From the NCBI GenBank assembly GCA_026415675.1, contig JAOAGQ010000056.1, forward strand, positions 1 through 51,531: a DNA stretch of 51,531 bases, written 5' to 3'. The position numbers and the translations under genes are program-made. Each line of letters starts with the position of its first letter. Within the stretch, counting starts at the first letter, position 1. This document shows positions 17,905 to 20,150 of the stretch, piece after piece. Source of the stretch: Syntrophorhabdaceae bacterium. GTDB taxonomy: Bacteria; Desulfobacterota; Syntrophorhabdia; Syntrophorhabdales; Syntrophorhabdaceae. Below the pieces are notes generated by a model that saw only the letters and a list, made by a program, of their open reading frames with translations, ran no database searches and was not told the origin of the DNA.

Positions 17905-17951
17905 CATCATCACTTAAAATTTAGTAACAATAAAATTGTAATGGAGGAGAG

Positions 17952-18653
17952 ATGAAACCGGTATACATAGAGGCGAGGGATATACCTGATGCATGGTTTC
18001 AGTGCATATACAGGATTTTTGAAGAAGAGGGTACCCATGAATATACGATAGACAGGGGATCCTTCGAGGGGCAGAAGAGGAGAGAGTTCGATATGGTTAT
18101 GGTTCACATAAAGTATCCTGGGATTAGACCCCTTATACCGGATATTCCTACCGAACTTGCCATTCCGGCCCCTTCAAGCATGGAGTACGTAGAGGAGTAC
18201 TTACAGTAGCTTAGGACCGATAAAAAGGGGGCTAACGAACTTTACACTTACGGAGAGAGGCTTATAAATCCGAAGGTCTATATAGAAGGAAAGGAGTGGG
18301 CATTGAATGTAAACCCTGTACATGAGGTTATTAAGATGTACAAGGAGGGGAAATACGGTACAAATCAGGCAATAATGGAAATTGGTATGCCCCAGGACAT
18401 CCTCATTGAAGACCCTCCCTGCCTCCGTTTAATAGATACCCGTTTGATGGAGGGGAGACTCCACTTTTTCTTATATTTCAGAAGCTGGGATCTATGGGCG
18501 GGGTTTCCTTCAAATCTTGCGGCCATACAGATCCTGAAGGAGTATATGTGTCACGAGATCGGGGTTGAGGATGGAACCATAACGGCAATGAGTAAGGGCT
18601 TACATCTATACGAATACTCCTTTGAGTTCGCCTTAAAACGCCTAAGGAGATAA
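17952..18653 (+). pseudogene. thyA: Thymidylate synthase (archaeal-like ThyA) interrupted by in-frame TAG
   Basis: Two open stretches in the same frame, codons 1-85 and 87-233, join across a single TAG at 18207-18209. Together they read as one thymidylate synthase of the shorter archaeal/deltaproteobacterial type, which makes dTMP from dUMP and methylene-tetrahydrofolate. Evidence is the catalytic cysteine C157 in DPPCLRL, then HFFLYFRSWDLWAGFPSNLAAIQ and GLHLYEYSFE. The residues flanking the stop (EEYLQ*LRTDKKG) match family wording where a tyrosine usually stands, so TAT or TAC changed to TAG is the simplest event. The start has GGAGG four bases before ATG. The second part has no ribosome site. 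At least nine other genes here end in TAG, so the codon is a normal stop. Nonsense mutation, assembly error, suppression or pyrrolysine insertion remain possible. Confidence 0.85.
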
Positions 18654-18659
18654 GTCGTT

Positions 18660-19544
18660 TTATAGTCCTGTATCTATTGAAATGTTACCGATCGCACTCT
18701 TTATACCTTCCTCTATCCGCCTCTTATCGAGCTTTTCATCTATAACATCGGTGCTGTAAGTTCCATCATGGGCATTGTATAGGGTGATATAGACCCTATC
18801 CTCCTTCTCGGGGATTATCTCCATGATCACCTTCTTATGGTATAAAAACTTTATTCCGTAGTACGTTCTTTCAATATGTATATCCTTCCAGAGGGAGGGG
18901 ACGAAACACGACAGTCTTTCTATCTCTTCAAGAGAACGGAACGAAACCATATCCAGGGGGTCTTGAAGGGCGAAAACTGAAAAGCGATGTTTTAATTCCT
19001 CATTAAGACCCTCTCTTTCCTTTAAAGACGGTTCTTCCAGAACCTTCTCTATGTTTTGGGCTAAATCAACGATTTCTGAGTAGCTGTATTTACTTCTTTC
19101 CCAGAGTCTGTCAAAGATCTCCCCTGCCTTAATCCATGGAAATCCTTTCTCCGAATCGATAAAAATATTTTTCCTCAACCTTCTGTCATAAAAATTCTTT
19201 ATCCCCCCTTTCTCGAGGCGACTATCTACATATATACTCCATATCTGGTCGTGTCTTTTTTTCTTTTCCGGCTCTTTTTCTTTATCAGGGGTGATCTCCG
19301 GTCTGTAACCGAAAGATGGTTCAAAGGCATCGTACAGGTAGAGAAATTGGCGGTAGATCCTCCCGTATAAGAGATACCTATCCCTCCATATGTGGAGTGT
19401 TACATCAAACTTATTTTTTCTTTTATCGATGGAGATCCTTTCTTCCCAGGGAGAGGCCGTATCCCTTATGTGTATGTTCCTTATATAACTATGGATACCG
19501 AGAGAAACTACTACTTCATCGATTATTGCTATTCTATAATCCAC
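18660..19544 (-). CDS. Unknown 294-residue protein
   Basis: I do not recognise a family. It starts with GTG at 19542-19544, directly after the TAG of the upstream gene, so translation is coupled. The protein is soluble, with no signal or membrane helix. The first 75 residues look like beta strands. A charged linker of E/K/P lies near 84-95 (PDKEKEPEKKKRHD), followed by a helical region with WIKAGEIFDRLWERSKYSYSE and a final beta-rich part. The N-terminal half has WRDRYLLYGRIYRQFLYLYDAF, which could fold as a helix pair. It is probably cytoplasmic and partners the exported helical-repeat protein encoded upstream. A role cannot be given. Confidence 0.7.
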   Translation of the reverse strand: MDYRIAIIDEVVVSLGIHSYIRNIHIRDTASPWEERISIDKRKNKFDVTLHIWRDRYLLYGRIYRQFLYLYDAFEPSFGYRPEITPDKEKEPEKKKRHDQIWSIYVDSRLEKGGIKNFYDRRLRKNIFIDSEKGFPWIKAGEIFDRLWERSKYSYSEIVDLAQNIEKVLEEPSLKEREGLNEELKHRFSVFALQDPLDMVSFRSLEEIERLSCFVPSLWKDIHIERTYYGIKFLYHKKVIMEIIPEKEDRVYITLYNAHDGTYSTDVIDEKLDKRRIEEGIKSAIGNISIDTGL

Positions 19545-20150
19545 CTAAAATTCGCCTTCGAGGGCGTATATCTCAAGAAGCAGAGTTTTAGCCCTCATCC
19601 ATAGGGAATCCTTATTTCTTGAGAAAGGTAGTGTCTCCATAAGCTCTGTCAAAAAGATCCTCGCCTTTTCCGGCTCATTTTTTTTCCCATATATAAAACC
19701 GAGATTATAGCCACAGGTGTCTTTTATCGCCTTGTATCGGGGTATAAGTTGCTTTATCCTGTTCAATTTTATAAAAAACTCCTCTTTATCGGCCTGCGAC
19801 GTTTCAGGTTCGTTTATAAAACGTTCATACTGTTTCTGAATATGGGATACGGTGGTTATCGCCTCTTTTGTAAATTCGTATATCTTCGTGTATATGGGTA
19901 AAGAACCCTCGATATCACCCTTTTTAAGAAGCTCTTCTGCCCTTTTCAGTGAGGACTGGATATTTGCATCGGATATCACTATATCCTTTTTCACCACCTC
20001 TTTAGGTGCCGGTTTTCTCGCCTTTTTTTCTGCCCCTAAAGTGTATGAAGGGTAAAAAAATAAGGCATAAGCAAAAAACATAATAAAAAACATAACGGTT
20101 ACTGAATGGGCATCTATCCTGCAATTCTTTCCACTTGAGAGATTGTCCAT
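19545..20150 (-). CDS. Exported TPR-like protein of unknown function
   Basis: A 201-residue protein. Residues 16-38 form a hydrophobic segment after a short charged start, which fits a signal peptide or single anchor. After a K/P/E-rich linker (about 40-55), helices near 62-100 and 140-200 have the alternating pattern of tetratricopeptide units (for example AEELLKKGDIEGSLPIYTKIYE and NLGFIYGKKNEPEKARIFLTE). It could be a periplasmic scaffold. The stop is immediately followed by the GTG start of the next gene, so the two are likely one unit. AAGGAG is 11 bases before the ATG. It is encoded just downstream of tRNA-Met on the same strand. Confidence 0.7.
   Translation of the reverse strand: MDNLSSGKNCRIDAHSVTVMFFIMFFAYALFFYPSYTLGAEKKARKPAPKEVVKKDIVISDANIQSSLKRAEELLKKGDIEGSLPIYTKIYEFTKEAITTVSHIQKQYERFINEPETSQADKEEFFIKLNRIKQLIPRYKAIKDTCGYNLGFIYGKKNEPEKARIFLTELMETLPFSRNKDSLWMRAKTLLLEIYALEGEF

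Follow-up and report, generated by a model that had tools for sequence, protein, structure and literature searches.

The gene described here resembles the methanogen-type thymidylate synthases of NCBIfam TIGR03283 ('thy_syn_methano', a family within Pfam PF00303), and the in-frame TAG that interrupts it invites comparison with several described situations. Belinky et al. (PMC7918605) reported bacterial in-frame stops under purifying selection, suggested that they are read through, and required each candidate stop in at least two species to exclude artefacts. Like those cases, the present gene is intact on both sides of its stop, but the stop occurs in one genome only. Pyrrolysine (amber) recoding likewise involves a TAG in frame within an intact gene. 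In contrast to such systems, the gene studied here is not a methylamine methyltransferase, its stop is not conserved, and neither PylS nor an amber-reading tRNA was found. It also resembles the singleton in-frame stops of draft genomes, which stem from sequencing errors or new pseudogenes, and shares with them one stop in one genome, absence of decay, intact orthologues in all relatives and a second odd base nearby. Unlike usual singleton draft stops, however, this one lies in a gene that looks essential, so that error is likelier than tolerated loss.

The window, i.e. the whole stretch of 51,531 nucleotides that was analysed, is an entire contig of a 2.56-Mb Syntrophorhabdaceae draft genome assembled in 75 contigs and 99.07% complete. 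Its nearest named relatives are metagenome-assembled Syntrophorhabdaceae/Syntrophorhabdus, Syntrophus-labelled genomes and unclassified Deltaproteobacteria. The gene and its landmarks, with the basis of each, are:

17941..17951, + strand: Shine-Dalgarno-like GGAGGAGAG ahead of the ATG start (sequence)
17952..18653, + strand: thyA-like gene for a short thymidylate synthase of methanogen type; 234 codons, counting the in-frame TAG and the final TAA (translation, profiles, homologues)
18207..18209, + strand: in-frame TAG at codon 86, where every homologue examined encodes Tyr (TAT/TAC) (alignment and named loci)
18213..18215, + strand: AGG (Arg) at codon 88, where 87 distinct homologues encode Met, Leu or Ile (homologue comparison)
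18420..18422, + strand: TGC for the catalytic cysteine (Cys157), 3' of the stop (translation, alignment)

Retranslation of the frame at 17952-18653 (+) yielded 85 residues, TAG, 147 residues and TAA. A good Shine-Dalgarno sequence, GGAGG, lies immediately 5' of the ATG, and apart from the TAG the frame contains neither frameshifts nor further stops. The dUMP-site motif RSWDLWAGFPSN and the catalytic Cys157 are both encoded 3' of the stop. Together with the profile matches given below, these results agree with the original prediction of a thymidylate synthase with one in-frame TAG, both halves in one frame, an intact GGAGG, start and active site, and a catalytic cysteine (codon at 18420..18422) placed after the stop. 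A search for local repeats near the stop, as a possible device, found none. Reinitiation in a split gene also appears unlikely: no possible start occurs past the stop until a TTG 31 codons further along, and its use would omit conserved residues 87-117.

When the TAG was treated as a single residue, the translated protein matched Pfam Thymidylat_synt (PF00303) at 40.9 bits against a cut-off of 24.3, and a PF00303 profile search of the genome scored thyA at 42.3 bits. TIGR03283 matched at 97.7 bits over residues 5-224, short of the 174.55 bits that define an equivalog. The same models also match each of the 30 aligned members, among which the catalytic Cys and the dUMP-specific Asn (RSxD...N motif) are invariant. 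The full-length match (5-224), short C-terminus, catalytic Cys and dUMP-contact motif are thus shared with methanogen-type enzymes, whereas this bacterial subgroup falls under the equivalog cut-off and the present copy has an in-frame TAG. Judging by these matches, the gene is a predicted ordinary short methanogen-type ThyA of a bacterial subgroup related to TIGR03283 but not filed as an equivalog. The roles of Cys157 and of the RSWDLWAGFPSN Asn were assigned from E. coli thymidylate synthase and presumably apply here. Because both Cys157 and RSWDLWAGFPSN come after the stop, the 85-residue product cannot be active.

We searched 99 genomes and took the 34 closest full-length homologues (family and order, 75-85% identity, none of the same genus). 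None of the 34 carries an internal stop, and their frames are uninterrupted, for which reason a conserved readthrough gene was rejected. At codon 86, 29 of 29 aligned homologues and 80 of 80 loci from named genomes, two sets that partly overlap, encode Tyr by TAT or TAC. The alignment therefore confirmed that the stop stands where the family usually has tyrosine. Mean identity to relatives is approximately 0.82 before the stop and 0.81 after it, indicating that the downstream half has not decayed. Furthermore, since relatives are 75-85% identical on both sides of the stop, the continuity of the frame is not due to chance. A decaying pseudogene was rejected given that further frameshifts, further stops and relaxed constraint are all absent, but a very recent pseudogene would look alike.

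Codon 88, on which the original prediction was silent, is also unusual. It reads AGG (Arg), as against M, L or I in 87 distinct homologues. Eight sense residues are private to the window protein, and Arg88, two codons past the stop, is the only one of them to be a radical change relative to all homologues (BLOSUM62 -1). For any one given substitution, the probability of falling at most two codons from the stop is about 4 in 232. The TAG and the AGG are each one change to G away from the closest homologue codons, and the two odd bases lie 5 bp apart. This clustering suggests a single cause, either a fault of base calling or assembly at this site or a mutation that altered several bases at once. 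An evaluation of Illumina HiSeq (PMC3334598) found A/C and G/T exchanges to be the commonest substitutions, and the platform used here may differ.

We consider it probable (roughly 60%) that the TAG is a local base-call or assembly error or reflects strain mixture; this and all gradings of the alternatives below are judgements, not computed values. A local consensus error, whether due to base calling, low coverage or mixed strains, would have changed two nearby bases and produced both the TAG at codon 86 and the Arg at codon 88, and the TAG would most likely be absent from the gene of the living population. This reading is favored because the stop is a singleton, the gene is undecayed and looks indispensable, another odd base lies 5 bp away and no decoding machinery was found. 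It fits the two-base cluster better than does a genuine new nonsense mutation or ordinary amber readthrough, and we infer a technical cause rather than a mutation in the cells. On the other hand, two clustered changes could also be one real multi-base mutation. The main counter-argument is the cleanness of the rest of the assembly, which makes an error less likely a priori. We scanned 451 kb (the window and 20 stretches of 20 kb) for stop-split genes, requiring coding character before and after the stop, and thyA was the sole strong case without a start near the stop (next start 31 codons on). The remaining strong candidates have a start at most 17 codons away, as in neighbouring genes, or an opposite long open frame. 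No interruption was found in any of the 41 full-length ABC-transporter domains of the genome. The lack of other stop-split genes in both samples also speaks against recoding.

Pyrrolysine insertion or global reassignment of TAG would be in keeping with an in-frame TAG in a gene that is intact elsewhere, but the machinery was not found and the probability of this explanation is close to nil. No PylS scored over the cut-off in the genome, whereas the same search did so in 1 of 14 control genomes; the four weak matches correspond to HisS, LysS, ThrS and EpmA. Every one of the 42 tRNAs over the Rfam cut-off was assigned an anticodon, and none has CTA; one further sub-threshold match was not called by ARAGORN. 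The tRNA model could miss an atypical tRNA-Pyl, and the exclusion of pyrrolysine therefore rests mainly on PylS. RF1 is intact (prfA, 487.8 bits, open frame), 13 of the 42 window genes end in TAG, and thyA alone has an internal stop. Global TAG reassignment was rejected on these grounds, in agreement with the earlier argument from other TAG-ended genes. Codon 86 is Tyr in all homologues, and a literature search found nothing relevant tying pyrrolysine to thymidylate synthase or to Syntrophorhabdaceae. Pyrrolysine insertion and a dedicated amber suppressor, both of which had been put forward originally, thus failed to find support, and within the limits of a 99% complete genome pyrrolysine or TAG reassignment is refuted. 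A real TAG could also be passed at low or moderate frequency by a near-cognate tRNA (Tyr or Gln), yielding enough full-length enzyme with no dedicated system. The need for thymidylate synthase, apparently the only dTMP route, and the published bacterial stops for which readthrough has been suggested (PMC7918605) speak for such readthrough. We nevertheless regard it as improbable: no suppressor tRNA was found among the 42, RF1 is intact, the stop is conserved in no homologue, no similar gene was found in 451 kb, and readthrough gives no reason for codon 88 changing too. The stricter version, in which the TAG is real and fixed, no other dTMP route exists and the sole synthase is made by amber readthrough with ordinary tRNAs, appears highly improbable. 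If it were true, DNA precursor synthesis would be limited by termination efficiency. Should the TAG be real and fixed, an essential enzyme would rely on readthrough with no tRNA dedicated to the task, a surprising situation.

The alternative of a genuine and very recent nonsense mutation holds that thyA is dead, with dTMP supplied by a ThyX hidden in a gap or by an unrecognised salvage kinase, or that the mutation is segregating. Searches of the 99.07% complete assembly found no ThyX, no second ThyA or other PF00303 homologue and no thymidine kinase. The gene is therefore the only thymidylate synthase of the assembly, as originally supposed. Imported thymidine, which had been offered as a fallback, lacks a detectable kinase, and the second intact synthase that had also been considered was not found. 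Consequently, cells with a fixed null would be expected to lack dTMP synthesis, barring a thyX or kinase gene hidden in an assembly gap. The family often shows redundancy and loss, since ThyX occurs in 25 of 39 family genomes, 24 of which also encode ThyA (one of these ThyA matches being a contig-end fragment and two being distant, ~40% identical), while one (G011) has ThyX without ThyA. Furthermore, the draft is in 75 contigs at 99.07% completeness and some expected tRNA genes such as Ile-GAT and Ala-TGC are absent, indicating that something is missing from the assembly; the Arg at codon 88 could represent early relaxed drift. Against a nonsense mutation, ThyA occurs without ThyX in 11 family genomes including the present one, so that this state is normal in the family (the other three genomes, with neither enzyme, are less complete), and no decay was seen beyond codons 86 and 88. 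Taken together with the missing alternative dTMP routes, these observations make a real nonsense mutation unlikely, though it deserves serious consideration. The original alternative of a very recent nonsense mutation or a base error holds up as a pair, with one genome, one stop and no decay, and within it we favor the local error. Reading the TAG as a biological curiosity is not supported. Where a draft genome has an essential gene in one copy only, and that copy contains a lone in-frame stop with a second odd base close by, the reads should be checked before recoding is claimed.

Downstream of thyA, the neighbourhood comparison revealed two further features:

18660..19544, - strand: hypothetical gene convergent with thyA, conserved beside thyA across the family
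19545..20150, - strand: second conserved hypothetical neighbour

Since these two convergent hypothetical genes adjoin thyA across the family, thyA sits at its orthologous locus. Neither gene in 18660-20150 has a Pfam match, and their convergent arrangement with thyA is kept across the family. An intact dUTPase gene is located on the same contig at 46071-46529, consistent with dUMP supply for thymidylate synthase. No DHFR of the PF00186 family was found in the genome, which seems to depend for dTMP solely on a short methanogen-type ThyA, with no classical DHFR beside it. The short ThyA subgroup is scattered among Syntrophorhabdaceae, Omnitrophota, Brocadiota-like and other bacteria, and one bin labelled Euryarchaeota. 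The co-occurrence of ThyX with a ThyA homologue in 24 of the 39 family genomes raises the question of whether this subgroup always acts as thymidylate synthase. In one homologue, among the 80 named-genome loci, a Tyr replaces the catalytic Cys.
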